The notes under the pieces were generated by a model. It searched no databases. It was not told the origin of the DNA and was given only the letters and a program-made list of their open reading frames with translations. A stretch of DNA of 64,000 nucleotides from Capillidium heterosporum (lineage: Eukaryota > Entomophthoromycota > Entomophthoromycetes > Entomophthorales > Capillidiaceae). Location: NCBI GenBank assembly GCA_016630905.1, contig WBMQ01000006.1, positions 1,612,001-1,676,000 on the forward strand, given 5' to 3'. This document shows positions 5,190 to 64,000 of this stretch, piece by piece (positions within the stretch are counted from its first letter, which is position 1; every line of letters starts with the position of its first letter). Both the position numbers and the translations under genes were made by a program.

Positions 5190-7113
5190 AGTTTTAACTT
5201 GGATTGTGCTATGATATAAATGTTGTTGGACACTTCAACTTATATAAGTTTAGTTGTAGATTTTCTCCACAATTTGATTTACCAAACAAGCAAATGGCTA
5301 TGAATTTCAGTTACGATTGGAGACTATCGCAGCTATTAGAATGAAGTGATCAACAGCACCTAATTGCCGCTAAATTTTGGTAATAAAAGTAACGATTTAT
5401 TTCCGCATTTGATTGAGAAGCGTTAAACAGATGTTGCGACCTCTACTCTATTTCCTACATTAAAAGTGATGGCAAATGTAAATTAAAATCCATAGTTTAA
5501 GTAGGTTGAAGTGTTACCTAACCCCCATTCTAAACTTCCTAGTTGATTCTGTAGCCCCATAGGACTAAATAGGTTGCCATCCTAAACTCGTCTAAACTTC
5601 TGTATGGGCTCCAATAAAGCTATCCAGGTAAACATACCTACCTTTATGTAAAATTTACCAATAGCGGTGTTGACTATTGTTTTTAACTATTCAATTCATT
5701 AAAATATTTGGCCATTATTTCGTTGCAAATTCCCTAGCTATGTAAAATCTTATAAATTGAATAGCAAAGATCAACCTATCGACAACCTAAGTTCGATATC
5801 CTCCACATTACTTCTTTATTCTGGTTCAATATTGATTGCTTGGTGTGTTTTCAGCAAATATTTAAAGGCTGGGTAGTTGTACTTCCATAAGTTAAATATC
5901 CACTAATTTTTGGATCGTAATAATCTCATTGGATGCAGCTATATAAGATTGAAAAAAACACTTTAAATATTGTGGAGAAGGCTTCAAAAGTTGTAAGTTG
6001 AAATTCTATTGCAATATTCTATGATCGACCTGATAATCGTGGAAATAATTTGAAATTTGTTGTGGTGTAGCAATAACAGACCTCTCGAATCGTGTATATC
6101 GCCTAAATATGTCCAAAAGACGCTATTGTTCAGAATTATAGTAATTCCAGTCTATGAAATTTAAGTTTTGGCAGTATCGGCTATATACCAAAACTAGAAA
6201 TGGCAAATTACATGTTGCGTTTTACAACATAAACCACTCTAATTTTCTATTGTCGTTCTTGTAGAGTGGAGTGCAGCTTAAATTTTATATTGGAATCTAA
6301 GAAGATCTCATAATTTATGGGCTATCGCTTGATAAATTTGAGGCTGTAGGTGTTGATTATCGACCATGTTCCACTATAAAATATTGGAAATGTGATACCA
6401 ATGTAAATCTCCAAGTATCGGAAAACTGGAATTATATTTTGAGCTGTAAAGGGTATCTAGCAATTATAAATTTATGTTCTACTTGGAAACGGTATGTTTA
6501 AAAGTTATAGGATATGAAACTGTTGATTGAGATGTTGGAGTCCAATCAAGTTTCAGATGGGAGTACCATTCCCAATTTGGAAAATATTATGGTTTGAAAA
6601 TTTATACATTACAAAACTTACTATAGAGGAATCTAATATAGATTAGCTATATAGAAAATCTGTATAGTCTTGTATTTGTAAATCGGTTGACTATTTAGCT
6701 AATAGGCTGGTCAAAAAATCGACCAGCTTATCGATGAGATGGGTAAACTTTCAATGAGACGCACTTAGGATAAGATGTATTTGCAATTTAGCCTCATCTT
6801 TAACGTACTTTGAAATGTAGAAATGGATAGCTTGCTAAAAGTTCAAGTCACTACTTTCTAAAATATATACGATTTACTTGCAATATATTACTAAGTCAGC
6901 CCTCTCAAAACAGAAATGTATGTGCGTAGAGAATCCATCAAGCATGTTCTAAGTAACAAACCAAAAGGAAAGAATTGAAGAGCCAAATAAAGGGCTTACG
7001 AGACTAAATAAACTCTCCCTTAAAAATAAATTAGATAGAAAGTAGTACACTTACTAGAATTTATTAAGTTTGATTAGTAGAATAAAGAATATCAGCATCA
7101 ACTGGAATGGACT
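5190..7113. other. Intergenic, upstream of the homeodomain gene and downstream of P450 copy A
   Basis: About 1.9 kb of AT-rich sequence with no supported gene, RNA or repeat. The last ~55 bases before P450 copy A's stop still resemble the 3' flank of copy B. Confidence 0.5.
5238..5248 (-). promoter_or_regulatory. TATA-like element of the homeodomain gene
   Basis: TTATATAA (palindromic) about 50-58 bases before the ATG, the same spacing as TATA-like elements before several other genes here. Confidence 0.4.
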
Positions 7114-8716
7114 TCACATCCAACTCAACCTCCTGGGTTGGAACCACATGCTTTGACTCTTAGGTTTCAGTATAGGGTCAGCTCTTGGTATCGGATCCGC
7201 TTTGGGATCAACTAGGTCCATATCGAATTTACTGAATATTGATGCTAAAGTTAATGTTACTTCCATCATGGCCAAACTATGGGATGTTAGTTTCTTTGGT
7301 TTGGTAGAAGGCTTACTGGTTCCCCGAACAGGCTCTGGGTCCCAAGTAGAATGGTAGATACGAGCCCTTCTGTAGTGGTAGGCAGCTTTGCTTGGTGTTG
7401 GGCAGCCACCGCTCCGGTACAAAGGAGTTGGGATCGCTCCAGATGTGGGGAGACCTATGGATGGCGTAGCTGGATACTCCAACTGTAGTCTATAAATCAG
7501 TCCAACTTGGTTAGTATGGTTTCAACATGGGGTTGACTTACATTTCCAGGCAGAAAGTACCCCAAGATGCTTTTCCCAGTGCTAGGCACCGATTTCAACC
7601 CAATCCCAGAAATCGCCGGTAGCAGTCGCATACTCTCTTTGATACATGCGTTCAAGTAAGGCAGCCTCTCGTTGCACAGCTTCAAACTAAACTCCTTGTA
7701 GTCCTGGCCACGAAACGCCGACTGGATCTCCTCGATGACTTTGGCCTTCGATTTAGGGTTGGTGGCTAGGTGGTACAGCACCCACAGGATGCTGTTTGCT
7801 GTGGATTCGGTACCGGCCAACAGTATGATGACTGCTTCGGCAATAACTTGGTCCTTATCCAAAGTCATGCCAGTTTCGGGATCGGTCGCATCCAGGTACC
7901 CTTTGAGCAGGGGGCTGTAGGCCAAGGTGTTTTCGACACCAACCAGCTTGTCGATGGCATCGGAGATGTAGGTGCGGATCTTCTCGTTGTAGGGGTTCTT
8001 GAACAGCTTTAGGATGGGGAAGGCTAAGCCTAGCAGCGTCAGGTTGAATCCTTTGACCATCCATTCGACGATGGGGTGGCCATCCATCTTCTGCATGTTG
8101 AAGCTCTGCCCGAAAGTCAGCCTGCCAACGACATCGTACCCTAGATAATGGAGTCTGTGGAACCCTTCGAACTTCTCGTCGGCATCCACCGACCTGTCGA
8201 TCTGCTGCAGCAGCTCGGTAATCTCGTTGTCGAGCATCAGCTGCTCGAACCCGTTCTTCTCCATGCTCTTCAAGTTCAGGCTGGGTGCCAGCTGTCTAGA
8301 TCGCATCTTGTGGAACTCTCGGTTTTGGGTTGAAAACACATTCTCTCCCAAAACAGAAAAGAGCTGGTAGTTGTCGGCTTTGTTGAAGGTGTATCCCGAC
8401 ATGATTTCGTAGGCGGCGTCGGCATCTACAACAATAACGGTTGTCCATCCAGCTCGGAATATCTTGCCGTACTTGAGGTGGTAGTCCAAAAGGTCGAGGT
8501 GGTTGGATCCTTGGACAATAGTTAGCTGGAATAAAAAGGGGAAGAGTTGGAGTGACAGTGGTCCGGGGATTTCCTTCAACGGGCTGAAGTAAATGCTGTA
8601 GATAACCTAGGTTTCGCAATTGGTTAGCATGTATTTAAAAGCAAAGCAAAGCTTACGTTGATGGCCCAGTAGAGGATTAGTGAAATTAGCACTGCAGCTA
8701 ATATTAGGAGAATCAT
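7114..8716 (-). CDS. Cytochrome P450, copy A, 486 aa, four exons
   Basis: Heme-thiolate monooxygenase, membrane anchored. Exons read right to left: 8657-8716, 7542-8606, 7317-7489, 7114-7276; introns of 50, 52 and 40 nt with GTAAG donors, TAG/CTAG acceptors and CTAAC branch motifs. Exon 1 encodes a hydrophobic anchor (MILLILAAVLISLILYW). Then: proline hinge (IPGP), I-helix AGTES (residues 284-288), ExxR as ESMR (344-347), PERW (400-403) and the heme loop FYLGPRACSG with Cys429. All catalytic landmarks are present and the length is normal, so it should be functional. Substrate and CYP family cannot be told. It differs from copy B at five residues, all in the last ~36; the rest of the protein is identical. 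A TATAAAA lies ~55 bases before the ATG. Confidence 0.95.
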
Positions 8717-8769
8717 TTTGATGTCGTTTATAATTTTGGCAATACTTTAGCTAAGGCCTAGCTGCCACC

Positions 8770-8776
8770 TTTTATA
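8770..8776 (-). promoter_or_regulatory. TATA box of P450 copy A
   Basis: TATAAAA on the minus strand, ~55 bases upstream of the ATG; the same element stands at the same distance before copy B although the surrounding promoter has diverged. Confidence 0.55.
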
Positions 8777-9477
8777 CCTAAATGCAAGGCATTGGATAAT
8801 TTTCGTATTTTTCCGACTTTAGGATGTAGAACAGGTATGGTGTTGGACAAAAACCGGTTGAACACTGTAGGAACATTTAATACCTTTATATAATTGTCCC
8901 AAAATTTCATTTTGTTGTAGTTCAGCCTAAGTATTATACAGCTTTGAGGCTCTTATGTAATACTATTTTTATAAATAGCGGCGGCATATGGCTATATTAC
9001 AAGTTTACTATTTGAGTTTGCTATTTAGGATAAACATAACATAATTATATAAGTTTACTTTATGCAAATTAAATTTTGTTGTTTATTACTAAAACGCAGT
9101 ACACTGTAATATCTACTGTTCACTCCTGATGAATATGCATGGTATTTATGCCACGTATTCTTTGTATTTTATGTTTCCTCAGTATAAACACACTACTATG
9201 TACACAAAATCGATATATGCTCTATACTTATACTTGAGCTATATACCTTAACCATTATTCAATTCTAGTTTGAAAACCCTATTCCCAAACAACTAGTTTT
9301 AACTTTTATCAGTTTAGATCGAATTACTAACCAACTCGCCCAAGGCAAATTAAGTCGGATAAATCCTTATATTGCTGGCTAGGTCGTTCAACCAAAATGT
9401 CGTCATCTCATATCTAATTTAAAACGAAAGCTATCCATTTGTAATCCTTTAAGTCGAATTGGATTTATTTCCAATTG

Positions 9478-13252: not shown

Positions 13253-13647
13253 TTAAAAGGTGGATCTAAAATCAAATAGGATACTAAATGACTATACGAA
13301 ATATTTCATATACAGCTGTGGTAGGCTTTCTTCAAAGCAAGCCAAAAAATTGCTGGATAGGAATCATGTCTAATTGAATTTGGAGTTGGTCCACAAGCAA
13401 GGAGACCACAGAAAGTTTTAGTCTGCTCCAGACATAATTAACTTCAATTCTAGCTTCTTACTGCCGACAAATTAGTGTGGAACTGATTCGAGAATGCTGA
13501 GGTTAATTGCTATTTAAAGTAATGGAAGCAAAGGGAAATTTAGCCAATCTAAATTTCATATAAGGACAGTGGCCCAACCTGATCTAGGATCAGGTATAGA
13601 TCCAAGTAGGTTTTGGCATTCGGAAGTTATTGATTTCAACAAAAAAG

Positions 13648-13654
13648 TATAAAA
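13648..13654 (+). promoter_or_regulatory. TATA box of P450 copy B
   Basis: TATAAAA ~55 bases before the ATG, matching the position in copy A. Confidence 0.55.
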
Positions 13655-13707
13655 GAAGGTGGCTAGACCTTAGCTAAAATTCTGCCAAAATTACAAACGA
13701 CATCAAA

Positions 13708-15310
13708 ATGATTCTCCTAATATTAGCTGCAGTGCTAATTTCACTAATCCTCTACTGGGCCATCAACGTAAGCTTTGCTTTGCTTTTAAATACATGCTAA
13801 CCAATTGCGAAACCTAGGTTATCTACAGCATTTACTTCAGCCCGTTGAAGGAAATCCCCGGACCACTGTCACTCCAACTCTTCCCCTTTTTATTCCAGCT
13901 AACTATTGTCCAAGGATCCAACCACCTCGACCTTTTGGACTACCACCTCAAGTACGGCAAGATATTCCGAGCTGGATGGACAACCGTTATTGTTGTAGAT
14001 GCCGACGCCGCCTACGAAATCATGTCGGGATACACCTTCAACAAAGCCGACAACTACCAGCTCTTTTCTGTTTTGGGAGAGAATGTGTTTTCAACCCAAA
14101 ACCGAGAGTTCCACAAGATGCGATCTAGACAGCTGGCACCCAGCCTGAACTTGAAGAGCATGGAGAAGAACGGGTTCGAGCAGCTGATGCTCGACAACGA
14201 GATTACCGAGCTGCTGCAGCAGATCGACAGGTCGGTGGATGCCGACGAGAAGTTCGAAGGGTTCCACAGACTCCATTATCTAGGGTACGATGTCGTTGGC
14301 AGGCTGACTTTCGGGCAGAGCTTCAACATGCAGAAGATGGATGGCCACCCCATCGTCGAATGGATGGTCAAAGGATTCAACCTGACGCTGCTAGGCTTAG
14401 CCTTCCCCATCCTAAAGCTGTTCAAGAACCCCTACAACGAGAAGATCCGCACCTACATCTCCGATGCCATCGACAAGCTGGTTGGTGTCGAAAACACCTT
14501 GGCCTACAGCCCCCTGCTCAAAGGGTACCTGGATGCGACCGATCCCGAAACTGGCATGACTTTGGATAAGGACCAAGTTATTGCCGAAGCAGTCATCATA
14601 CTGTTGGCCGGCACCGAATCCACAGCAAACAGCATCCTGTGGGTGCTGTACCACCTAGCCACCAACCCTAAATCGAAGGCCAAAGTCATCGAGGAGATCC
14701 AGTCGGCGTTTCGTGGCCAGGACTACAAGGAGTTTAGTTTGAAGCTGTGCAACGAGAGGCTGCCTTACTTGAACGCATGTATCAAAGAGAGTATGCGACT
14801 GCTACCGGCGATTTCTGGGATTGGGTTGAAATCGGTGCCTAGCACTGGGAAAAGCATCTTGGGGTACTTTCTGCCTGGAAATGTAAGTCAACCCCATGTT
14901 GAAACCATACTAACCAAGTTGGACTGATTTATAGACTACAGTTGGAGTATCCAGCTACGCCATCCATAGGTCTCCCCACATCTGGAGCGATCCCAACTCC
15001 TTTGTACCGGAGCGGTGGCTGCCCAACACCAAGCAAAGCTGCCTACCACTACAGAAGGGCTCGTATCTACCATTCTACTTGGGACCCAGAGCCTGTTCGG
15101 GGAACCAGTAAGCCTTCTACCAAACCAAAGAAACTAACATCCCATAGTTTGGCCATGATGGAAGTAACATTAACTTTAGCATCAATATTCAGTAAATTCG
15201 ATATGGACTTAGCTGATCCCAAAGCAGATCCAATGCCGAGAGCAAACCCTATATTGAAACCCAAAAGTCAAAGTATGCTGTTCCAACCCAGGAGGTTGGG
15301 TTGGATGTGA
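13708..15310 (+). CDS. Cytochrome P450, copy B, 486 aa, four exons
   Basis: Same architecture as copy A: exons 13708-13767, 13818-14882, 14935-15107 and 15148-15310. Spliced frame is intact. The introns are placed by GT/AG plus CTAAC branch sequences and by continuity of the P450 motifs: AGTES in the I-helix, ESMR, PERW, and the heme-binding FYLGPRACSG followed by NHLAMMEV across the third intron. The coding sequence from exon 1 to the start of exon 4 differs from copy A by a single silent change that I could find (glycine GGC here, GGT in copy A, at 14612/7812). After residue ~450 the copies suddenly differ at five amino acids. Divergent from copy A and convergent with the asteroid-like gene. 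Confidence 0.95.
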
Positions 15311-15889
15311 AATCTGTTCTAGATGATGTTGATATTCCTTGTTCTACTAATAAACCTTAATTATGTATATTTTAGCTTTCTATGTCTTTAATAAGCTTTA
15401 TTAGTAAAGAGAACTATTGGTCTTGCTATACTCTCCTACTTGGATATTTAGCCCTATAATTATATGTTTATCACTTGTAATTGTGTTGGATAAGTACTTG
15501 TTTAGCGTACGGTTTTCCTCTTTAGTATACTATACATAAATGGTTCTAAGCTAGTACTTGCTCAATTTCTTATTGAAAGGAGGTAGCTTTAGCTTTGGAT
15601 GAGTTTGCCTATAACTATTTTAAAAAGGTTAGCTTGATGCACTTGGACTCCAAAGTCATCCCATTCATCAGTTTCGGTATCAAGTTTATTTAATTCATAA
15701 GCCATCAGTCGACTTTCCTTCAAATTCACTTTATTATAAACAGTGTGACTAATTGAATATACAAATGCTAGGATCTTCCTTTATTAGAATTAGTCAGAAT
15801 ATGTACATGTACCTTTCCACCTTGGAAGACTAACCAATTATTCCAGTTCATCCTTAGAAAAATTTATATTTCCAACTACAAACACAAAT
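15311..15889. other. Intergenic between convergent genes
   Basis: 3' flanks of P450 copy B and the asteroid-like gene; nothing else seen. Confidence 0.6.
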
Positions 15890-49930: not shown

Positions 49931-50139
49931 TTTTTGAAGTTAGTATTGCGGATTATTAATTGAATATTGAAACTATTTGACTATATATTTAGATCTAAAA
50001 ATACTTGATACTATAAAATAGATATTTTTAAGATATAAGATAACTTTTATTCTTTGATAACTTATAGCTAATAATTTTTTTAATATTATAAAAATTATTT
50101 TAAATTTATAAACTATTAGAATTTTTTAATTAATAATAA

Positions 50140-50560
50140 AAATTAAATATTTAACTATTAGCTTAAACTTTTAGTTAATTAGATTTAATTAAACTTAATA
50201 AATCCTTTAGTATAAAATATACTATATATATTGTTGGTTAGTTACCTTTATTAAGTATTTAATTATTAGTTTGGACTTTTAGTTAAATAAATTTAACTAA
50301 ACTTAGTAATTTTTTTAGTATAAAACATAATATATATTGTATTATAGGCTGACTAATATAGATATAGTAACTACTTTACAATTAAATCTAATATAAAGGC
50401 TTTATTTTTATAATACTTTTAGCTAAGAATCTTTAAAATATTATAATTAATATAATTTAAATTTAAAAACTCTTTTTTTCTTTATTGATAAAAACAATTT
50501 AAAAACTTTTTTTTTACTTTTTTATTATTTTTTTATTTATTTAATAGTTTATTATTTATT
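50140..50560 (+). repeat. LTR-like family B, two nested strongly mutated copies
   Basis: A partial B copy (about 50145-50231) is interrupted by a second B copy starting TGTTGGTTAG at 50232. Both align with the copy at 51764 (e.g. CTTTAGTATAAAATATA, GGCTGACTAATATAGATA) with heavy A/T enrichment. Confidence 0.5.
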
Positions 50561-50597
50561 TATTTGTTTATCCTTTTATTTTTATTTATTTATTTTT

Positions 50598-51763
50598 TAT
50601 TAGAAAATATCTATAAAAAATGTTTACTAACTAGGGTTAACTAGGGAGTAATAGTAGCTAAGACTTTATAAAAGCTAAGAATATTAACTATAAAGCTATA
50701 TAAAAAGAAGGCTTATATTTATAGCCTAATCTAAAAATAGTAGGCAAATAAAAATACTTTAAAAATAGCTATTAAGCTAAAAAGTATAATTAAGTTTATT
50801 AGTGTTAGGAAATATCTACCACAAATACTTACTAGCAGAAGTCAACTAGGCAGTAATAGTAGCTAGTACTCTATAAAGGCTAAGGAAGTTGATACAAAAG
50901 TTATACAAAAAGGATAATTATGCCTAGAGTTGGATCTAAAGGCAGTGAGTAGATAGAACTACTCTAACTATAGCCACAAGACTAAGGAATGTAGTTAAAT
51001 CCATTGTTTATCTTAAGTTTTCAGATTCAGTTCAGTTTAGGTTATTAATTCAGTTTAGGTTGTTAATTCAGGTCAGGTTAATGCAACTTTTAGTCTTAGA
51101 GGAATGCAAATTATCAGTTCTCAATTATACTATGCAAGGAGTCTATACTATGCTAATAGTAAAAGAAAATATCAAATGTTCAATATGTTTATTTAATAAT
51201 TACTTGATTTACTACTAAGTTTACTATAGGCTTTATATAGATGATTTGTTTTTAGTAGTAAATGTTCCAAATATTCATTTAGTGTTTTTGGGAAATAATC
51301 ATAATTGTTAAGAAGTATAAGGAATGAGATATAGTAATTATAGGATTAATTACCTGATTCCTGTTATAAAGGCATTTCTAAACTTGAATTTGGTTTATAA
51401 GTGAAACTATAGCTAATCTAGAAATATTTTCTTACAATTAGTTTAAAAGAGTTTTAAGGTTTAGTTCAGATCAATTTGGTTTAGTTCTATTGTTTAGTTT
51501 AGATTAGTATAACTCTTTATTATAAAAGAATACTAATTATCAGTTTTATATTATACTATACAGAGAGTTTATACTATGCTAATAGCAAAAGAAATACTAA
51601 ATGATTTAATACATTTATTTAAATATAACTTAACTTACTACTAAGTTTATTATAAGCCTTATATAAATAATTTGTCTTTAGTAATTAATACTTGAAATAC
51701 TAGTAATTAATGTTTTTTCTAATCTATCAATAACATTATTCTTCTTGTTTTCTAAGTATTTAT
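50598..51763 (+). repeat. LTR-like family A copy split by a nested insertion
   Basis: Two segments, 50598-50802 and 51437-51763, are collinear with the minus-strand copy at 53020-53569 and are separated by the solo LTR at 50803. Confidence 0.6.
50803..51436 (+). mobile_element. Nested solo LTR, family A, with 5-bp target duplication
   Basis: Starts TGTTAGGAAATATC and ends TTTCTTACA (TG...CA). Directly flanked by ATTAG at 50798-50802 and ATTAG at 51437-51441, a 5-bp target-site duplication typical of LTR retrotransposons. About 634 bp, no internal genes, so a solo LTR. Sequence is AT-shifted relative to the copy near 53.5 kb. Confidence 0.65.
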
Positions 51764-52196
51764 TGTTGGCTGGTTGTTTTTGCTAAGTGTCTAACCACTA
51801 GCTAGAACTTTTAGTTAATTAGATTTGGCTAAACTTAGTGAGTCCTTTAGTATAGGATATAATATGTATATTATATTATAAATTAACTAATATAGATACA
51901 GTTAATTCCTCTACAACTAATAAAAGTACTAAAAATTCTCAATTCCTAAAAAACCATTAGTTAAGAACCTTTTAATATTTAATAAAATTAATCCAACTTA
52001 ATATACAATCTTAAAACCTTAAAGACCTCAAACTATGAAATACTAAAATCTTTTGTATTTTTTAAATTCTTAATTCTTAGAAAAACCTCTTCCTTTTTCC
52101 TATATAAAAGGTACAATATATATATTGTCAACTTAGCTCTTCAGCTGAGTTGTAGAGTAATCATCAATTTATATTATTTTTCATAGTTAGCTTACA
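51764..52196 (+). mobile_element. LTR-like family B copy
   Basis: Starts TGTTGGCTGG and can end at TTAGCTTACA (TG...CA), about 433 bp. Contains TATATAAAAGG near 52110, a plausible LTR promoter. It interrupts the end of the split A copy; the target duplication is not clean. Confidence 0.5.
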
Positions 52197-52435
52197 TTTT
52201 ATACTATGTTCTGACAATGTGCTTTAGGTTATAAACTTTATCTCTCACTGAAGACTCACTTTAATTACTAGATGACCAGTTTTACTATACTAATCAGCTG
52301 TACAAATCATTGGATCTGAACTTTAAGGGTGGACTACTACAACCAGAACACATGTCTACCCCCTTGCAGAAGAAATATCCACTTACATATTGGTAAGTTA
52401 TGACTATCCCCAAAGCTATGATATATATATTATAC

Positions 52436-52781
52436 CTTTCAGACAGGAAAAAAGAAGGGTTTCTTCAGAGGATTAAGGAATTAGAGAATATAAAGGATTT
52501 TGGATTTTGTGGTTTGAGGTCTTTAAGGTTCTAAGATTGTATATTGAGTTGGATTAGCTTTATTAAACATTAAAAGGTTCTTAGCTAATGATTTTTCAGG
52601 AATTGAGAATTTTTAGTACTTTCATTGGTTGTAGAGGAATCAACTGTATCTATATTAGTCAGCCTACAATACAATACATATATTATGTTCCATGCCAAAG
52701 GACTTACTAAGTTTGGCTAAACCCAATCAACTGGAAGTTCTAGCTAGTAGTTAGACACTTAGCAAGGGCGACCAGCCAACA
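52436..52781 (-). mobile_element. LTR-like family B copy, opposite strand
   Basis: Reverse complement aligns with 51764-52115 throughout, with higher GC (e.g. CTTCCAGTTGATTGGG here where 51764's copy has CTTTTAGTTAATTAGA). Flanked by inverted copies of one ~60-bp sequence (52370-52435 and 52787-52850). Confidence 0.55.
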
Positions 52782-53019
52782 TATATTATAGCTTTAGAGA
52801 TAGTCATAACTTACTAATATGTAAGTAGATATTTTTTTTATAAGGAGGTTATAAGGAAATCCTTTTAATCAGCTGTAACTTTACTTAATAACTAAAATTC
52901 AATTTTATATTTTAAATACATAGATTACCAATTTAGCATTAATCCTAGCAATACTAAAAGTTCTTTTTTCTTTAGTATGAATTAAGCATTTTATTTAGCA
53001 TTGACTGTCTTTAAATCAA

Positions 53020-53569
53020 TCTTGTCATTTCTGGGGTTAATAATAAATGCCTAAAAAACAAGAGGAATAGTATTACTGATAAATTAGGGAAAATATCAAT
53101 TACCAGTACTTAAAGGACCAACTACTAAGAACAAGTCACCTATATAAGACCCATAGTAAACTTAGTAAAAGGTTAAGTTATATTTAAATAAATGTATTGA
53201 ATCATTTGATATTTCTTCTGCTATTGGCATAGTATAGACTCCCTGCATAGTATAATATAAAACTGATAATCGGCATTTCTTGACAGTAAAGAGTTGCACT
53301 GATCTGAACTGAATGATAGAATTGAACTGAATTGATCTAAACTAAACCCTAGAACCCTCCTAAACTAATGAACCCAACTGTGCTTCTTAGCCTAATAGCT
53401 ACCCTTAGAGTATTCCTATCTGTCTACTGTCTCTGGATTAGGCTACAAGCACAAGCCTCCTCCTTATATAGCCTTATAGTTAACATTCTTAGCCTTTATG
53501 GAGTCCTGGCTACTATTGCTCTCTAGCTAACCCCAGCTAGTGAATATTCCTTGTAAACATTTCCTAACA
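53020..53569 (-). mobile_element. LTR-like family A copy, opposite strand
   Basis: Read on the minus strand it starts TGTTAGGAAATG at 53569 and aligns with both A copies on the left. It retains more GC and is the best copy for a consensus. Flanked by inverted copies of a ~150-bp sequence (about 52855-53005 and 53582-53735). Confidence 0.55.
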
Positions 53570-54015
53570 GTAGTTAATGCTAAATAAAATACTTAATTTA
53601 TACTAAAAAAAGAATTTTTAGTATTACTAGGATTAATACTAAACTGGTAATTTATATATCTAAAATATAAAACTAAATTCTAGTTATTAAGTAAAGCTAT
53701 AGCTAATTAAAAGTATTTTTTTATAAAAATAATAGTATATATTTATAGTATATGTAAGGTCCAAGGGGGTACCGTTGAATCCAACTAATGATGGTGTCAT
53801 AATGGGAGCATATGACATGTAAGGTTGGGACAGTAGAACCAATGCCAACTACAGCATTGGTAATATGAATCACCCAAAGGAGGTAAGTTCAAAGGGAAGC
53901 AAAGAAAGTTTGAATGGAGTGAGCTAAGAGGGTATAGAAGTCAAACCACATATTCGCACAATCTAATAACTAAAAGGCTGACCAGGAACAATACTTTATT
54001 TGTAGACGAAACAGA

Positions 54016-54115
54016 ATCAGGCTGTTAGAGACAGCTATGGCAAAGGAAACAGATCAGGCTGTCAGAGACAGCTATGGCAAGGGAAACAAATCAGGCTATC
54101 ACAACAGCTATAGTT
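54016..54115 (+). repeat. Short tandem repeat, 37-bp unit, about 2.6 copies
   Basis: Unit begins ATCAGGCTGT and includes GAGACAGCTATGGCAA; second copy differs by single transitions, third is partial. Confidence 0.75.
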
Positions 54116-54176
54116 GATGGTTGAGATCAAGAGGTGAGTAACAGCTATTTAGAAAATAGCAAAGTGGAACGTTGTT

Positions 54177-54230
54177 AAGATACCAGCCTTCAATAGCATT
54201 CCAAGGGTTTAAATACCCTTTTGGTATCTT
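54177..54230. other. Foldback / potential hairpin
   Basis: Outer arms AAGATACC and GGTATCTT and an inner pair AAGGGT/ACCCTT around TTTAAA make a 54-base imperfect foldback. Function unknown. Confidence 0.4.
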
Positions 54231-54479
54231 GGCAATACTTGCTGAATATCCAAATCCCGATATCAAAATGCTATGCTGGTAATAGCTGGAGTTTCTAACT
54301 TATAGCTGAGATTACAAATATGGGAAATTGTCAAGAATATCTAATAAATAGAACAGATTTCTGTTTGAAACTAGATATAAATGGAAAGTAGAAAATCGAA
54401 GATTGGTAAGGGAAAGAAAATAGTATAGTATGCAAAGAAAGTTAGTCGATGACCTTAGATTAGGAATTGTAACAACCAG

Positions 54480-54870
54480 AGTTGTTATAGTATATACTAA
54501 AAAGGTAGTAGTAGTAAAATATGAGAAGGAAGATAGTATATACCTTTAGTGTATATTAGAAAGATAGTAGCAGCAGTAGAAAGCAAGAAGTAGTATATAG
54601 TATACACTTCTAGTATATATTAAAAAGGTATAACAGCAAGAACAAAGAGATAAAATATAGTATATACCTCCAATGTATACTAAAAAGGTATAATAGCAAG
54701 AATAGCAAAACAGAATATAGTATATACCTCTGATATATACTAAAAAGGTATAACAGTAAGGATAGTAAGACAACATACAGTATATACCTATAGTGTACAC
54801 TACAGAAGTACAACAGTAAGAAGAGTAGAGGGGTAAGAATGACCACTTACATGGTCACTACAGAAGTACA
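54480..54870 (+). repeat. Satellite zone 0: decayed, AT-rich units
   Basis: About six units of ~58-62 bp with core AGTATATACC...TATATACT and tail AAAAAGGTATAACAGCAAG. They correspond to the 56-bp units at right with G-to-A and C-to-T changes (GTGTACACC to GTATATACC). Units become more like the intact repeat toward the right. Confidence 0.8.
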
Positions 54871-55815
54871 ACAGCACAGCCAGGAAGACTAGACCAGTGT
54901 ACACCTTGGTGTACACTAAGAAGTACAACAGCACAGCCAGAAGAGAAGACCAGTGTACACCTAGGTGTACACTAAGAAGTACAACAGCACAGCCAGAAGA
55001 GAAGACCAGTGTACACCTAGGTGTACACTAAGAAGTACAACAGCACAGCCAGAAGAGAAGACCAGTGTACACCTAGGTGTACACTAAGAAGTACAACAGC
55101 ACAGCCAGAAGAGAAGACCAGTGTACACCTAGGTGTACACTAAGAAGTACAACAGCACAGCCAGAAGAGAAGACCAGTGTACACCTAGGTGTACACTAAG
55201 AAGTACAACAGCACAGCCAGAAGAGAAGACCAGTGTACACCTAGGTGTACACTAAGAAGTACAACAGCACAGCCAGAAGAGAAGACCAGTGTACACCTAG
55301 GTGTACACTAAGAAGTACAACAGCACAGCCAGAAGAGAAGACCAGTGTACACCTAGGTGTACACTAAGAAGTACAACAGCACAGCCAGAAGAGAAGACCA
55401 GTGTACACCTAGGTGTACACTAAGAAGTACAACAGCACAGCCAGAAGAGAAGACCAGTGTACACCTAGGTGTACACTAAGAAGTACAACAGCACAGCCAG
55501 AAGAGAAGACCAGTGTACACCTAGGTGTACACTAAGAAGTACAACAGCACAGCCAGAAGAGAAGACCAGTGTACACCTAGGTGTACACTAAGAAGTACAA
55601 CAGCACAGCCAGAAGAGAAGACCAGTGTACACCTAGGTGTACACTAAGAAGTACAACAGCACAGCCAGAAGAGAAGACCAGTGTACACCTAGGTGTACAC
55701 TAAGAAGTACAACAGCACAGCCAGAAGAGAAGACCAGTGTACACCTAGGTGTACACTAAGAAGTACAACAGCACAGCCAGAAGAGAAGACCAGTGTACAC
55801 CTAGGTGTACACTAA
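54871..55815 (+). repeat. Satellite zone 1: 56-bp units, about 17 copies
   Basis: Nearly identical head-to-tail units whose core GTGTACACCTAGGTGTACAC is a perfect 20-base palindrome, followed by TAAGAAGTACAACAGCACAG and CCAGAAGAGAAGACCA. The first unit has CTTGG instead of CTAGG. Confidence 0.97.
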
Positions 55816-58800
55816 GAGGTAGAGGTGGCAGCAGCAAGAACAGCGAACAAGTAGAGTGTACACCTTCGGTGTACACTAAGAGGTGGCAGCAGCAAGAACA
55901 GCGAACAAGTAGAGTGTACACCTTCGGTGTACACTAAGAGGTAGAGGTGGCAGCAGCAAGAACAGCGAACAAGTAGAGTGTACACCTTCGGTGTACACTA
56001 AGAGGTAGAGGTGGCAGCAGCAAGAACAGCGAACAAGTAGAGTGTACACCTTCGGTGTACACTAAGAGGTGGCAGCAGCAAGAACAGCGAACAAGTAGAG
56101 TGTACACCTTCGGTGTACACTAAGAGGTGGCAGCAGCAAGAACAGCGAACAAGTAGAGTGTACACCTTCGGTGTACACTAAGAGGTGGCAGCAGCAAGAA
56201 CAGCGAACAAGTAGAGTGTACACCTTCGGTGTACACTAAGAGGTAGAGGTGGCAGCAGCAAGAACAGCGAACAAGTAGAGTGTACACCTTCGGTGTACAC
56301 TAAGAGGTGGCAGCAGCAAGAACAGCGAACAAGTAGAGTGTACACCTTCGGTGTACACTAAGAGGTAGAGGTGGCAGCAGCAAGAACAGCGAACAAGTAG
56401 AGTGTACACCTTCGGTGTACACTAAGAGGTGGCAGCAGCAAGAACAGCGAACAAGTAGAGTGTACACCTTCGGTGTACACTAAGAGGTGGCAGCAGCAAG
56501 AACAGCGAACAAGTAGAGTGTACACCTTCGGTGTACACTAAGAGGTAGAGGTGGCAGCAGCAAGAACAGCGAACAAGTAGAGTGTACACCTTCGGTGTAC
56601 ACTAAGAGGTAGAGGTGGCAGCAGCAAGAACAGCGAACAAGTAGAGTGTACACCTTCGGTGTACACTAAGAGGTAGAGGTGGCAGCAGCAAGAACAGCGA
56701 ACAAGTAGAGTGTACACCTTCGGTGTACACTAAGAGGTGGCAGCAGCAAGAACAGCGAACAAGTAGAGTGTACACCTTCGGTGTACACTAAGAGGTAGAG
56801 GTGGCAGCAGCAAGAACAGCGAACAAGTAGAGTGTACACCTTCGGTGTACACTAAGAGGTGGCAGCAGCAAGAACAGCGAACAAGTAGAGTGTACACCTT
56901 CGGTGTACACTAAGAGGTGGCAGCAGCAAGAACAGCGAACAAGTAGAGTGTACACCTTCGGTGTACACTAAGAGGTACAAGAGCAAGAACAGCGAACAAG
57001 TAGAGTGTACACCTTCGGTGTACACTAAGAGGTGGCAGCAGCAAGAACAGCGAACAAGTAGAGTGTACACCTTCGGTGTACACTAAGAGGTAGAGGTGGC
57101 AGCAGCAAGAACAGCGAACAAGTAGAGTGTACACCTTCGGTGTACACTAAGAGGTAGAGGTGGCAGCAGCAAGAACAGCGAACAAGTAGAGTGTACACCT
57201 TCGGTGTACACTAAGAGGTAGAGGTGGCAGCAGCAAGAACAGCGAACAAGTAGAGTGTACACCTTCGGTGTACACTAAGAGGTAGAGGTGGCAGCAGCAA
57301 GAACAGCGAACAAGTAGAGTGTACACCTTCGGTGTACACTAAGAGGTAGAGGTGGCAGCAGCAAGAACAGCGAACAAGTAGAGTGTACACCTTCGGTGTA
57401 CACTAAGAGGTAGAGGTGGCAGCAGCAAGAACAGCGAACAAGTAGAGTGTACACCTTCGGTGTACACTAAGAGGTAGAGGTGGCAGCAGCAAGAACAGCG
57501 AACAAGTAGAGTGTACACCTTCGGTGTACACTAAGAGGTACAAGAGCAAGAACAGCGAACAAGTAGAGTGTACACCTTCGGTGTACACTAAGAGGTAGAG
57601 GTGGCAGCAGCAAGAACAGCGAACAAGTAGAGTGTACACCTTCGGTGTACACTAAGAGGTAGAGGTGGCAGCAGCAAGAACAGCGAACAAGTAGAGTGTA
57701 CACCTTCGGTGTACACTAAGAGGTAGAGGTGGCAGCAGCAAGAACAGCGAACAAGTAGAGTGTACACCTTCGGTGTACACTAAGAGGTAGAGGTGGCAGC
57801 AGCAAGAACAGCGAACAAGTAGAGTGTACACCTTCGGTGTACACTAAGAGGTAGAGGTGGCAGCAGCAAGAACAGCGAACAAGTAGAGTGTACACCTTCG
57901 GTGTACACTAAGAGGTAGAGGTGGCAGCAGCAAGAACAGCGAACAAGTAGAGTGTACACCTTCGGTGTACACTAAGAGGTGGCAGCAGCAAGAACAGCGA
58001 ACAAGTAGAGTGTACACCTTCGGTGTACACTAAGAGGTACAAGAGCAAGAACAGCGAACAAGTAGAGTGTACACCTTCGGTGTACACTAAGAGGTGGCAG
58101 CAGCAAGAACAGCGAACAAGTAGAGTGTACACCTTCGGTGTACACTAAGAGGTAGAGGTGGCAGCAGCAAGAACAGCGAACAAGTAGAGTGTACACCTTC
58201 GGTGTACACTAAGAGGTAGAGGTGGCAGCAGCAAGAACAGCGAACAAGTAGAGTGTACACCTTCGGTGTACACTAAGAGGTACAAGAGCAAGAACAGCGA
58301 ACAAGTAGAGTGTACACCTTCGGTGTACACTAAGAGGTGGCAGCAGCAAGAACAGCGAACAAGTAGAGTGTACACCTTCGGTGTACACTAAGAGGTAGAG
58401 GTGGCAGCAGCAAGAACAGCGAACAAGTAGAGTGTACACCTTCGGTGTACACTAAGAGGTAGAGGTGGCAGCAGCAAGAACAGCGAACAAGTAGAGTGTA
58501 CACCTTCGGTGTACACTAAGAGGTAGAGGTGGCAGCAGCAAGAACAGCGAACAAGTAGAGTGTACACCTTCGGTGTACACTAAGAGGTAGAGGTGGCAGC
58601 AGCAAGAACAGCGAACAAGTAGAGTGTACACCTTCGGTGTACACTAAGAGGTACAAGAGCAAGAACAGCGAACAAGTAGAGTGTACACCTTCGGTGTACA
58701 CTAAGAGGTAGAGGTGGCAGCAGCAAGAACAGCGAACAAGTAGAGTGTACACCTTCGGTGTACACTAAGAGGTAGAGGTGGCAGCAGCAAGAACAGCGAA

Positions 58801-61800
58801 CAAGTAGAGTGTACACCTTCGGTGTACACTAAGAGGTAGAGGTGGCAGCAGCAAGAACAGCGAACAAGTAGAGTGTACACCTTCGGTGTACACTAAGAGG
58901 TACAAGAGCAAGAACAGCGAACAAGTAGAGTGTACACCTTCGGTGTACACTAAGAGGTAGAGGTGGCAGCAGCAAGAACAGCGAACAAGTAGAGTGTACA
59001 CCTTCGGTGTACACTAAGAGGTACAAGAGCAAGAACAGCGAACAAGTAGAGTGTACACCTTCGGTGTACACTAAGAGGTAGAGGTGGCAGCAGCAAGAAC
59101 AGCGAACAAGTAGAGTGTACACCTTCGGTGTACACTAAGAGGTAGAGGTGGCAGCAGCAAGAACAGCGAACAAGTAGAGTGTACACCTTCGGTGTACACT
59201 AAGAGGTAGAGGTGGCAGCAGCAAGAACAGCGAACAAGTAGAGTGTACACCTTCGGTGTACACTAAGAGGTACAAGAGCAAGAACAGCGAACAAGTAGAG
59301 TGTACACCTTCGGTGTACACTAAGAGGTAGAGGTGGCAGCAGCAAGAACAGCGAACAAGTAGAGTGTACACCTTCGGTGTACACTAAGAGGTAGAGGTGG
59401 CAGCAGCAAGAACAGCGAACAAGTAGAGTGTACACCTTCGGTGTACACTAAGAGGTAGAGGTGGCAGCAGCAAGAACAGCGAACAAGTAGAGTGTACACC
59501 TTCGGTGTACACTAAGAGGTAGAGGTGGCAGCAGCAAGAACAGCGAACAAGTAGAGTGTACACCTTCGGTGTACACTAAGAGGTAGAGGTGGCAGCAGCA
59601 AGAACAGCGAACAAGTAGAGTGTACACCTTCGGTGTACACTAAGAGGTAGAGGTGGCAGCAGCAAGAACAGCGAACAAGTAGAGTGTACACCTTCGGTGT
59701 ACACTAAGAGGTAGAGGTGGCAGCAGCAAGAACAGCGAACAAGTAGAGTGTACACCTTCGGTGTACACTAAGAGGTAGAGGTGGCAGCAGCAAGAACAGC
59801 GAACAAGTAGAGTGTACACCTTCGGTGTACACTAAGAGGTAGAGGTGGCAGCAGCAAGAACAGCGAACAAGTAGAGTGTACACCTTCGGTGTACACTAAG
59901 AGGTAGAGGTGGCAGCAGCAAGAACAGCGAACAAGTAGAGTGTACACCTTCGGTGTACACTAAGAGGTAGAGGTGGCAGCAGCAAGAACAGCGAACAAGT
60001 AGAGTGTACACCTTCGGTGTACACTAAGAGGTAGAGGTGGCAGCAGCAAGAACAGCGAACAAGTAGAGTGTACACCTTCGGTGTACACTAAGAGGTAGAG
60101 GTGGCAGCAGCAAGAACAGCGAACAAGTAGAGTGTACACCTTCGGTGTACACTAAGAGGTAGAGGTGGCAGCAGCAAGAACAGCGAACAAGTAGAGTGTA
60201 CACCTTCGGTGTACACTAAGAGGTAGAGGTGGCAGCAGCAAGAACAGCGAACAAGTAGAGTGTACACCTTCGGTGTACACTAAGAGGTGGCAGCAGCAAG
60301 AACAGCGAACAAGTAGAGTGTACACCTTCGGTGTACACTAAGAGGTACAAGAGCAAGAACAGCGAACAAGTAGAGTGTACACCTTCGGTGTACACTAAGA
60401 GGTAGAGGTGGCAGCAGCAAGAACAGCGAACAAGTAGAGTGTACACCTTCGGTGTACACTAAGAGGTAGAGGTGGCAGCAGCAAGAACAGCGAACAAGTA
60501 GAGTGTACACCTTCGGTGTACACTAAGAGGTGGCAGCAGCAAGAACAGCGAACAAGTAGAGTGTACACCTTCGGTGTACACTAAGAGGTAGAGGTGGCAG
60601 CAGCAAGAACAGCGAACAAGTAGAGTGTACACCTTCGGTGTACACTAAGAGGTAGAGGTGGCAGCAGCAAGAACAGCGAACAAGTAGAGTGTACACCTTC
60701 GGTGTACACTAAGAGGTAGAGGTGGCAGCAGCAAGAACAGCGAACAAGTAGAGTGTACACCTTCGGTGTACACTAAGAGGTGGCAGCAGCAAGAACAGCG
60801 AACAAGTAGAGTGTACACCTTCGGTGTACACTAAGAGGTAGAGGTGGCAGCAGCAAGAACAGCGAACAAGTAGAGTGTACACCTTCGGTGTACACTAAGA
60901 GGTAGAGGTGGCAGCAGCAAGAACAGCGAACAAGTAGAGTGTACACCTTCGGTGTACACTAAGAGGTAGAGGTGGCAGCAGCAAGAACAGCGAACAAGTA
61001 GAGTGTACACCTTCGGTGTACACTAAGAGGTAGAGGTGGCAGCAGCAAGAACAGCGAACAAGTAGAGTGTACACCTTCGGTGTACACTAAGAGGTGGCAG
61101 CAGCAAGAACAGCGAACAAGTAGAGTGTACACCTTCGGTGTACACTAAGAGGTAGAGGTGGCAGCAGCAAGAACAGCGAACAAGTAGAGTGTACACCTTC
61201 GGTGTACACTAAGAGGTAGAGGTGGCAGCAGCAAGAACAGCGAACAAGTAGAGTGTACACCTTCGGTGTACACTAAGAGGTAGAGGTGGCAGCAGCAAGA
61301 ACAGCGAACAAGTAGAGTGTACACCTTCGGTGTACACTAAGAGGTAGAGGTGGCAGCAGCAAGAACAGCGAACAAGTAGAGTGTACACCTTCGGTGTACA
61401 CTAAGAGGTAGAGGTGGCAGCAGCAAGAACAGCGAACAAGTAGAGTGTACACCTTCGGTGTACACTAAGAGGTGGCAGCAGCAAGAACAGCGAACAAGTA
61501 GAGTGTACACCTTCGGTGTACACTAAGAGGTAGAGGTGGCAGCAGCAAGAACAGCGAACAAGTAGAGTGTACACCTTCGGTGTACACTAAGAGGTGGCAG
61601 CAGCAAGAACAGCGAACAAGTAGAGTGTACACCTTCGGTGTACACTAAGAGGTAGAGGTGGCAGCAGCAAGAACAGCGAACAAGTAGAGTGTACACCTTC
61701 GGTGTACACTAAGAGGTAGAGGTGGCAGCAGCAAGAACAGCGAACAAGTAGAGTGTACACCTTCGGTGTACACTAAGAGGTGGCAGCAGCAAGAACAGCG

Positions 61801-64000
61801 AACAAGTAGAGTGTACACCTTCGGTGTACACTAAGAGGTAGAGGTGGCAGCAGCAAGAACAGCGAACAAGTAGAGTGTACACCTTCGGTGTACACTAAGA
61901 GGTAGAGGTGGCAGCAGCAAGAACAGCGAACAAGTAGAGTGTACACCTTCGGTGTACACTAAGAGGTAGAGGTGGCAGCAGCAAGAACAGCGAACAAGTA
62001 GAGTGTACACCTTCGGTGTACACTAAGAGGTGGCAGCAGCAAGAACAGCGAACAAGTAGAGTGTACACCTTCGGTGTACACTAAGAGGTAGAGGTGGCAG
62101 CAGCAAGAACAGCGAACAAGTAGAGTGTACACCTTCGGTGTACACTAAGAGGTGGCAGCAGCAAGAACAGCGAACAAGTAGAGTGTACACCTTCGGTGTA
62201 CACTAAGAGGTAGAGGTGGCAGCAGCAAGAACAGCGAACAAGTAGAGTGTACACCTTCGGTGTACACTAAGAGGTAGAGGTGGCAGCAGCAAGAACAGCG
62301 AACAAGTAGAGTGTACACCTTCGGTGTACACTAAGAGGTAGAGGTGGCAGCAGCAAGAACAGCGAACAAGTAGAGTGTACACCTTCGGTGTACACTAAGA
62401 GGTAGAGGTGGCAGCAGCAAGAACAGCGAACAAGTAGAGTGTACACCTTCGGTGTACACTAAGAGGTAGAGGTGGCAGCAGCAAGAACAGCGAACAAGTA
62501 GAGTGTACACCTTCGGTGTACACTAAGAGGTAGAGGTGGCAGCAGCAAGAACAGCGAACAAGTAGAGTGTACACCTTCGGTGTACACTAAGAGGTAGAGG
62601 TGGCAGCAGCAAGAACAGCGAACAAGTAGAGTGTACACCTTCGGTGTACACTAAGAGGTAGAGGTGGCAGCAGCAAGAACAGCGAACAAGTAGAGTGTAC
62701 ACCTTCGGTGTACACTAAGAGGTAGAGGTGGCAGCAGCAAGAACAGCGAACAAGTAGAGTGTACACCTTCGGTGTACACTAAGAGGTAGAGGTGGCAGCA
62801 GCAAGAACAGCGAACAAGTAGAGTGTACACCTTCGGTGTACACTAAGAGGTAGAGGTGGCAGCAGCAAGAACAGCGAACAAGTAGAGTGTACACCTTCGG
62901 TGTACACTAAGAGGTAGAGGTGGCAGCAGCAAGAACAGCGAACAAGTAGAGTGTACACCTTCGGTGTACACTAAGAGGTAGAGGTGGCAGCAGCAAGAAC
63001 AGCGAACAAGTAGAGTGTACACCTTCGGTGTACACTAAGAGGTAGAGGTGGCAGCAGCAAGAACAGCGAACAAGTAGAGTGTACACCTTCGGTGTACACT
63101 AAGAGGTAGAGGTGGCAGCAGCAAGAACAGCGAACAAGTAGAGTGTACACCTTCGGTGTACACTAAGAGGTAGAGGTGGCAGCAGCAAGAACAGCGAACA
63201 AGTAGAGTGTACACCTTCGGTGTACACTAAGAGGTAGAGGTGGCAGCAGCAAGAACAGCGAACAAGTAGAGTGTACACCTTCGGTGTACACTAAGAGGTA
63301 GAGGTGGCAGCAGCAAGAACAGCGAACAAGTAGAGTGTACACCTTCGGTGTACACTAAGAGGTAGAGGTGGCAGCAGCAAGAACAGCGAACAAGTAGAGT
63401 GTACACCTTCGGTGTACACTAAGAGGTAGAGGTGGCAGCAGCAAGAACAGCGAACAAGTAGAGTGTACACCTTCGGTGTACACTAAGAGGTAGAGGTGGC
63501 AGCAGCAAGAACAGCGAACAAGTAGAGTGTACACCTTCGGTGTACACTAAGAGGTAGAGGTGGCAGCAGCAAGAACAGCGAACAAGTAGAGTGTACACCT
63601 TCGGTGTACACTAAGAGGTAGAGGTGGCAGCAGCAAGAACAGCGAACAAGTAGAGTGTACACCTTCGGTGTACACTAAGAGGTAGAGGTGGCAGCAGCAA
63701 GAACAGCGAACAAGTAGAGTGTACACCTTCGGTGTACACTAAGAGGTAGAGGTGGCAGCAGCAAGAACAGCGAACAAGTAGAGTGTACACCTTCGGTGTA
63801 CACTAAGAGGTAGAGGTGGCAGCAGCAAGAACAGCGAACAAGTAGAGTGTACACCTTCGGTGTACACTAAGAGGTAGAGGTGGCAGCAGCAAGAACAGCG
63901 AACAAGTAGAGTGTACACCTTCGGTGTACACTAAGAGGTAGAGGTGGCAGCAGCAAGAACAGCGAACAAGTAGAGTGTACACCTTCGGTGTACACTAAGA
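55816..64000 (+). repeat. Satellite zone 2: 64-bp units with 58- and 57-bp variants
   Basis: Roughly 130 units to the window edge, so the true array is longer. Each unit has a 10-bp inverted repeat (AGTGTACACC and its complement) around TTC, then TAAGAGGTAGAGGTGGCAGC and AGCAAGAACAGCGAACAAGT. The 58-bp variant lacks one AGAGGT. Nine 57-bp units, found only between ~56975 and ~60345, have GTACAAGAGC in place of the GGTAGAGGTGGCAGCAGC part. After the last 58-bp unit (~62150) all units are 64 bp. Open frames through the array are by-products of the repeat. Confidence 0.97.

Follow-up and report, generated by a model that had tools for sequence, protein, structure and literature searches.

Hairpin-bearing satellite arrays with paired stem changes at contig ends of Capillidium heterosporum

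Layout of the hairpin array

The 64,000-nucleotide window analyzed here covers positions 1,612,001 to 1,676,000 of contig C41 in the 29.5-Mb, 44-contig assembly of the fungus Capillidium heterosporum, and its right-hand part is occupied by a satellite array whose units carry inverted repeats. An earlier note on this DNA had described at least 9.5 kb of tandem repeats, and the array is indeed there: it spans ~54,490 to the window end at 64,000 and continues for a further 544 bases to the contig end, where the final ~75 bases are noisy. Here, as in contig C1, genes and repeat elements lie on the proximal side, and the distal side is never reached. The start at 54,480 given in the earlier note falls near the end of an element resembling a solo long terminal repeat (LTR), and the tandem units follow from ~54,490. 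Reading outward, the window holds the following features (AT, adenine-thymine):

53,734 to 53,752, + strand: AT-rich left piece of the first hairpin unit, decayed and severed from its remainder by the solo-LTR-like element
53,753 to 54,489, + strand: solo-LTR-like element of 737 bp, not satellite, with 5-bp direct repeats GTATA at both flanks
54,490 to 54,895, + strand: decayed proximal stratum of ~60-bp AT-rich units with imperfect hairpins
54,535 to 54,822: tandem run of proximal AT-rich ~60-bp units, 74-79% matches
54,856 to 55,821: tandem run of 56-bp units, 17.2 copies, 99% matches
54,896 to 55,813, + strand: stratum A, 56-bp units with the 22-bp perfect palindrome AGTGTACACCTAGGTGTACACT, 16 hairpins of exact form, the first at 54,952
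55,792 to 55,854, + strand: junction unit of 63 bp, a type-A hairpin with a type-B spacer after it
55,792 to 64,000: tandem run of ~64-bp units, 131.4 copies, 95% matches
55,855 to 64,000, + strand: stratum B, 131 hairpins AGTGTACACC-TTC-GGTGTACACT, with 98 units of 64 bp, 23 of 58 and 9 of 57

Perfect hairpins number 147 in the window (start positions 54,952 to 63,974); the earlier note gave about 150. Most of them (131) have the 10-bp stem AGTGTACACC/GGTGTACACT with loop TTC, and the other 16 lie within the perfect 22-bp palindrome; one extra hairpin with loop TT stands just ahead of these 16. The core GTGTACAC reported earlier therefore exists, but the stem is longer, being 10 bp or a 22-bp palindrome, and the statement that every unit carries the core does not hold because the units lying most proximally are decayed. 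The reported sharp switch of unit type is real and is made by one single 63-bp unit at 55,792, in which the old palindrome is joined to the new spacer inside sequence common to both types. Both unit types are present as described, but they are rather two strata of one array, the order outward being decayed AT-rich ~60-bp units, then 56-bp palindrome units, then units of 57, 58, and 64 bp.

The 146 hairpin intervals comprise 98 of 64 bp, 23 of 58, 15 of 56, 9 of 57, and the one of 63 bp at the junction; the final 28 in the window are all 64 bp. A nucleosome-like spacing, with three units spanning 168 or 192 bp, had been suggested; nucleosome phasing is not supported, because lengths of 56, 57, 58, and 64 bp are mixed, 32 of the 146 units measuring 57 or 58 bp.

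The inverted repeats in the units exceed chance. For each of five units, a perfect inverted repeat of at least 8 bp with a loop of 2-4 arose in 0-16 of 20,000 mononucleotide shuffles, and folding of the same number of units as single-strand DNA gave z values of -2.7 to -6.6. As to a possible ribosomal DNA spacer, neither the window nor the eight loci scanned had a match to rRNA, and no Rfam family reached its gathering score in them.

Because the solo-LTR-like element interrupts the first decayed unit, the array originally started a little further left, at ~53,734. With the element and one copy of its target removed, one decayed hairpin unit can be read there, with its AAAAAGG spacer behind it. 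A second copy of the element (696 bp, flanks TATAG) lies at the left end of C41 (L012:589-1284). Between the genes and the array, window positions 50,001-53,369 are AT-rich (18-29% guanine plus cytosine [GC] in 50,001-53,000), and two long inverted-repeat pairs at 51,437-53,369 lie proximal to the array.

A family of arrays at contig right ends

The earlier note had raised recurrence at other chromosome ends as a check, and related arrays were found. We inspected the right ends of 35 of the 44 contigs, mostly their final 160-180 bases, and 14 of them stop within a hairpin array in a single polarity (C1, C3, C4, C5, C7, C12, C19, C23, C32, C38, C41, C42, C43, and C44). Such an array stands at the right end of 13 of the 15 contigs longer than 0.5 Mb. 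When the decayed edge at 54,480-54,860 was used as a DNA query, same-family matches were returned toward the right ends of C38, C19, C44, C4, C1, and C43, all on the + strand, with 67-79% identity and a best E value of 4e-33.

All units follow one plan, namely a hairpin of 7-11 bp, a loop of 0-4 bases, and then a purine-rich spacer of 34-43 bp. What is common to the 14 ends is the paired stem, the purine-rich spacer, and the polarity. Judged by the position of the spacer after the stem, all 14 arrays are in + orientation, so that the purine-rich strand runs 5' to 3' toward the contig end; the purine fraction of this strand is 0.74-0.94 in 15 representative spacers. Across the genome the spacer pattern was matched 471 times in forward and once in reverse orientation, compared with 1 and 0 for a reversed-pattern control. 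If contigs are oriented at random, the two-sided chance of 14 in one orientation is 1.2e-4 (hand arithmetic). Since an internal array running in one direction would appear in both orientations, the arrays most plausibly face outward.

The versions are specific to their ends, the 14 terminal units differing from one another in stem, loop, or spacer. We searched the genome with three of the types. The C41 core type gave 155 matches, and the 100 listed are all in C41, whose array has 155 hairpins; the C43 stem gave 108, with the 100 listed all in C43; and the C32 unit gave 98, all in C32. C41, C1, and C12 share a stem and have different spacers or loops. The core GTGTACAC named in the earlier note thus does not define the family, as its stem is used by three of the 14 ends and the other 11 have different stems. 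In C23, an array of 58-bp period (C23:3088991-3102674), with 98 places among the spacer matches listed, has a stem in which A is opposed to A at both places read, a half-changed stem that seems to have spread.

Seven of the 14 array edges were read. Proximal and terminal types differ in C41, C1, C38, C4, and C19, and are the same, after a decayed edge, in C43 and C44. Measured against a composite unit, C>T and G>A changes made up 47/63, 67/77, 30/48, and 45/77 of the substitutions at four edges, the 67/77 belonging to the window edge at 54,480-54,860, for which the composite unit was typed by hand. The proximal units are old and decayed and the distal units uniform, a pattern that distal renewal with proximal fossils would be expected to leave.

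Some further features of the proximal side were observed. In C1, past the decayed edge and before the main array, there is a 67-bp unit with two hairpins, GTGTCCACC-TTC-GGTGGACAC and GTAGTGGC..GCCACTAC (L010:7776-8019). A shared repeat element directly borders the C1 and C4 arrays (window 53400-53570; L010:6960-7257; L055:1-108); in the window it stands, by eye, ~0.17 kb outside the first decayed unit, as if common to chromosome ends. Its C1 copy resembles, again by eye, the right arm of an element with long inverted ends.

Two other explanations bear directly on these data. The first is that the arrays are an assembly artifact, with repeats collapsed or invented at contig ends. The consensus does become noisier toward contig ends, and array length is unreliable; however, 14 different unit types, strata that follow in order, decay at the edges, and an edge element with a target duplication would be hard for an assembler to create, and we consider an artifact very improbable. 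The second is that the arrays are centromere cores at which the assembly breaks, their dyad symmetry marking CENP-A chromatin. Centromeric satellites commonly have short dyad symmetries, according to the available text of PMC8997354, the arrays are contig-specific and terminate the assembly, and the flank is AT-rich (18-23% GC at 50-52 kb). Yet the single orientation of 14/14 arrays and the 471:1 ratio of spacers would fit only a mirror-symmetric centromere, and the two arms of one chromosome should have the same type, whereas the 14 ends differ. A centromeric role is therefore quite unlikely. The doubt about function voiced in the earlier note was justified, and among the roles it named a terminal one, subtelomeric or telomeric, is now favored over a centromeric one.

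Paired change of the stem arms

Because the stems vary from end to end, we asked how well their arms stay paired by dealing the 3' arms among the ends. One exact terminal unit was taken per end (14 in all) and its innermost 8 pairs were scored; proximal units were left out, among them two strongly decayed ones with 3/10 pairs each. Watson-Crick pairs were found at 110 of 112 inner positions, the exceptions being an A.A in C23 and an A.A in C19, the latter at the eighth pair. With the 3' arms dealt at random, the mean was 61.9 (standard deviation [SD], 5.9) and the maximum 93 in 100,000 trials. When identical stems were collapsed to 12, counting C4 and C23 separately despite their common 5' arm, 94 of 96 positions were paired, compared with 50.8 (SD, 5.6; maximum, 80) after swapping. 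All four pair types occur at pair position 5, and at position 8 there are four types plus one A.A.

This test replaced one in which 23 units had been picked by eye, giving 188/222 pairs versus 113.7 ± 7.1 after swapping, and 157/172 versus 92.6 ± 7.0 in a subset of 18; four of those strings (C12, C23, C42, and C19 end) had no exact presence in the noisy contig ends.

A minimum spanning tree of 14 stems, including proximal ones, contains 24 base-pair changes, and six of its links are a single pair; the tree is not a proven lower bound, and in C19 perfect pairing of the stem extends along 7 bp only (0 exact matches at 8 bp). C4 preserves a series of such steps in adjacent units, GCATACACC, GTATACACC, and GTATGCACC (the last with a C.A beside the loop), with GTAAGCACC at the contig end, and at each step one pair is altered in both arms. 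Half-changed stems were also seen, namely the C23 A.A in two places and two proximal C4 units with 1-2 inner mismatches. The stem changes have thus occurred mostly as whole base pairs, in both arms together.

Within a single array the hairpin can be more uniform than the spacer. In C1, before the consensus becomes noisy (cut at L011:6800), all 137 of 137 hairpins are identical and the 136 spacers come in 23 versions, with the reservation that the cut was set by judgment to exclude the noisy end and that rare spacer versions are possibly consensus errors. Beyond the cut, hairpins deviate along with spacers. Over the entire C1 array, 165 of 177 inverted repeats have exactly the main form.

It appears that the fold rather than the sequence has been kept, by selection or by repair. 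Under selection, a folded hairpin or cruciform would be needed at the end, either as a DNA structure or in a transcript. Alternatively, hairpin-templated repair could transfer a change in one arm to its partner, with amplification of the unit following afterward. Either may explain the paired arms; the half-changed stem of C23, which seems to have spread, fits repair plus drift as well as weak selection.

The chromosome-end reading and known systems

Taken together, these observations lead us to think that the array probably belongs to a family of chromosome-end satellites that are renewed distally by recombination and in which the hairpin is kept by paired changes. The contig ends would then correspond to chromosome ends, and every chromosome end would have its own version of the satellite. 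New versions would spread distally by recombination within the array (unequal exchange, conversion, or break-induced copying), with the older ones staying behind proximally and decaying through C>T changes. Most likely, the arrays would make up the buffer of the chromosome end and its cap-proximal block, and would also provide a substrate for recombination by which the end is kept long.

How the arrays relate to the telomere itself was approached in several ways. Four copies of TTAGGG in a row had no match in the 29.5-Mb assembly, and an 18-base TTAGGG query allowing up to 2 mismatches returned nine scattered single matches, compared with four in the control. In the end pieces scanned (35 readable left and 35 right ends of 160-700 bases), Tandem Repeats Finder (TRF) detected no short-period array resembling a telomere. 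A six-frame genome search with profiles PF12009 and PF21399 (telomerase RNA-binding domain and TERT C-terminal region) and PF02765 (POT1) gave no match, and a search of the same kind found the positive control PF08640 in the same genome. These negatives are weak, as introns interrupt genes in a six-frame search; of the three profiles, two were silent in the control genomes and the third was below cutoff in Lactococcus only, and a fungal TERT or POT1 control was absent. TERT and POT1 also diverge fast.

It is possible that the arrays are the telomeres themselves, complex repeats maintained by recombination without telomerase. Their presence at 13 of the 15 contigs above 0.5 Mb, their telomere-like strand polarity, the lack of a TTAGGG array in the assembly, and the silence of the telomerase and POT1 profiles where the control family was found all point this way, and uniformity within arrays and the sharp unit switch are compatible with recombinational upkeep, though not proof of it. 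The Chironomus telomeres, made of ca. 350-bp satellite, offer a precedent in the available text of PMC9498494. On the other side, fast divergence of TERT and POT1, introns, and weak controls mean that absence of telomerase is not established, no array reaches a physical end, and the ends may carry another telomere motif. We judge this explanation unlikely. Also unlikely is the bolder proposal that nuclear chromosomes end in telomerase-free hairpin-satellite caps, with the paired stem and the outward purine-rich strand as their only conserved code and with each end evolving a sequence of its own while selection acts on the fold alone.

Conversely, these could be ordinary subtelomeric satellites with a telomerase-made telomere beyond them, the hairpin having no role and palindromes being kept only by template switching within hairpins, which turns imperfect ones into perfect ones that homogenization of the array then spreads. 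The contigs stop inside the arrays, so a distal telomere could be unassembled; a mutational origin requires no selection, and half-changed stems do exist in C23 and in the two proximal C4 units; and the proximal repeat element is, by eye, common to the C1, C4, and window edges. Still, no TTAGGG array was found in the assembly, and 24 base-pair changes with few half-changed terminal stems are much for repair bias alone. This explanation is a serious one, which we hold to be somewhat short of an even chance.

Several observations weigh against the reading that we prefer, that of distally renewed chromosome-end satellites with a hairpin kept by paired change. C2 and C6, both above 1 Mb, have no right-end array, the right end of C2 overlapping the small contig C21. 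We saw no tandem repeat of 54-67 bp in the first 700 bases of the 35 readable left ends (42 were fetched, seven were all N, and C43 and C44 lay outside the sample). A terminal model must account for these array-less left ends by assembly loss, which could have come from a FALCON-like assembler that, we presume, drops the first read of each contig. If the submitters oriented contigs by their arrays, the polarity relative to the array stands and the left ends are truly without arrays. All 14 contigs stop inside the array, so the physical end is never reached and sequence beyond is possible. As for the fold, the C23 A.A indicates that strict perfect pairing is not required, C19 has its A.A at the eighth pair, in C19 and C44 decayed proximal units have 3/10 positions paired, loops are not conserved, and the arms were chosen by eye as inverted repeats, a choice for which the swap test controls only partly.

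In the usual view, satellite DNA is free to diverge from one chromosome to another. The family seen here has changed its letters and kept its inverted repeat through paired changes, in strata that can be followed outward, starting at the old edge. Should selection be responsible, this would be evidence for a DNA or RNA hairpin working at chromosome ends; should it be repair, the arrays would document hairpin-templated mutation in nature with unusual clarity. The literature covered, by title and opening of the abstract and with subscription titles mostly outside it, did not describe such arrays or Conidiobolus-like telomeres. As the assembly is also without a TTAGGG array, the telomere question is directly testable.

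Other features of the window and the assembly were noted in passing. Ten open reading frames (ORFs) of the window were scanned. An M28 peptidase has 65% identity over 92% of the query to a protein of Neoconidiobolus thromboides FSU 785, and on this one protein we regard the fungus as related to Conidiobolus, among the early-diverging fungi. An XPG-like protein had no match at 1e-10, and others match Zn-cluster regulators (two), P450, Utp6, a ZIP transporter, GRASP, a RING finger, and a homeodomain. Window positions 7063-8777 and 13647-15361 form a 1.7-kb inverted duplication, 98% complementary and 4.9 kb apart, that carries two P450 ORF copies with identical translations. Elsewhere, the small, GC-rich contigs C28, C37, and C40 (L040 C28:1-700, L049 C37:1-700, L052 C40:1-700; L086, L090, L091) have an inverted terminal sequence beginning TCAAAAGGGTGGGG in common, of which C28 starts, by eye, with a 64-bp palindrome; they may represent a linear plasmid or a linear mitochondrial DNA whose ends are hairpin-like. 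C10:1-10000 (L022) and C13:1-10000 (L025) share their initial 7.7 kb at 99% identity, as C20 and C29 do their first 0.7 kb, and these shared starts are either assembly bubbles or two haplotypes.

Helitrons carry a hairpin before a CTRR end, and satellites derived from them resemble these arrays in having a tandem hairpin followed by a conserved short stretch. We rejected this origin because there is no common CTRR: by eye, what follows the stem is other than CTRR in most ends and varies from one to another (CAGGG in C1 and CAGAA in C4). The fungal telomere repeats named in the available text of PMC8305976 are TTAGGG and repeats of 16 and 23 bp, and that text includes nothing of the hairpin-array kind. 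Fungal subtelomeric tandem repeats are similar in lying near contig ends, in having a proximal element at some ends, and in their homogenization, but here an adjoining telomere repeat was not found, the hairpin has paired changes, and there is one type per end. The centromeric dyad-symmetry satellites of the Kasinathan and Henikoff type are likewise tandem and have short inverted repeats for which hairpins or cruciforms are predicted (PMC8997354, available text), and inverted repeats in the units are found here as well (147 perfect hairpins in the window). In contrast to those satellites, polarity and position here point to chromosome ends, and the available part of that description does not include compensated stem changes.

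The chromosome ends of Chironomus and Anopheles consist of long tandem arrays of complex units kept up by homologous recombination, as given in the available text of PMC9498494 and PMC7694509. The C. heterosporum arrays differ in that the units are 55-65 bp, each carries a hairpin with a co-varying stem, the organism is a fungus, and a terminal position is deduced from contig ends. They are alike in being long arrays, in having units that far exceed a telomerase repeat, and in their probable place at chromosome ends, and of the systems compared these would be the closest in working.

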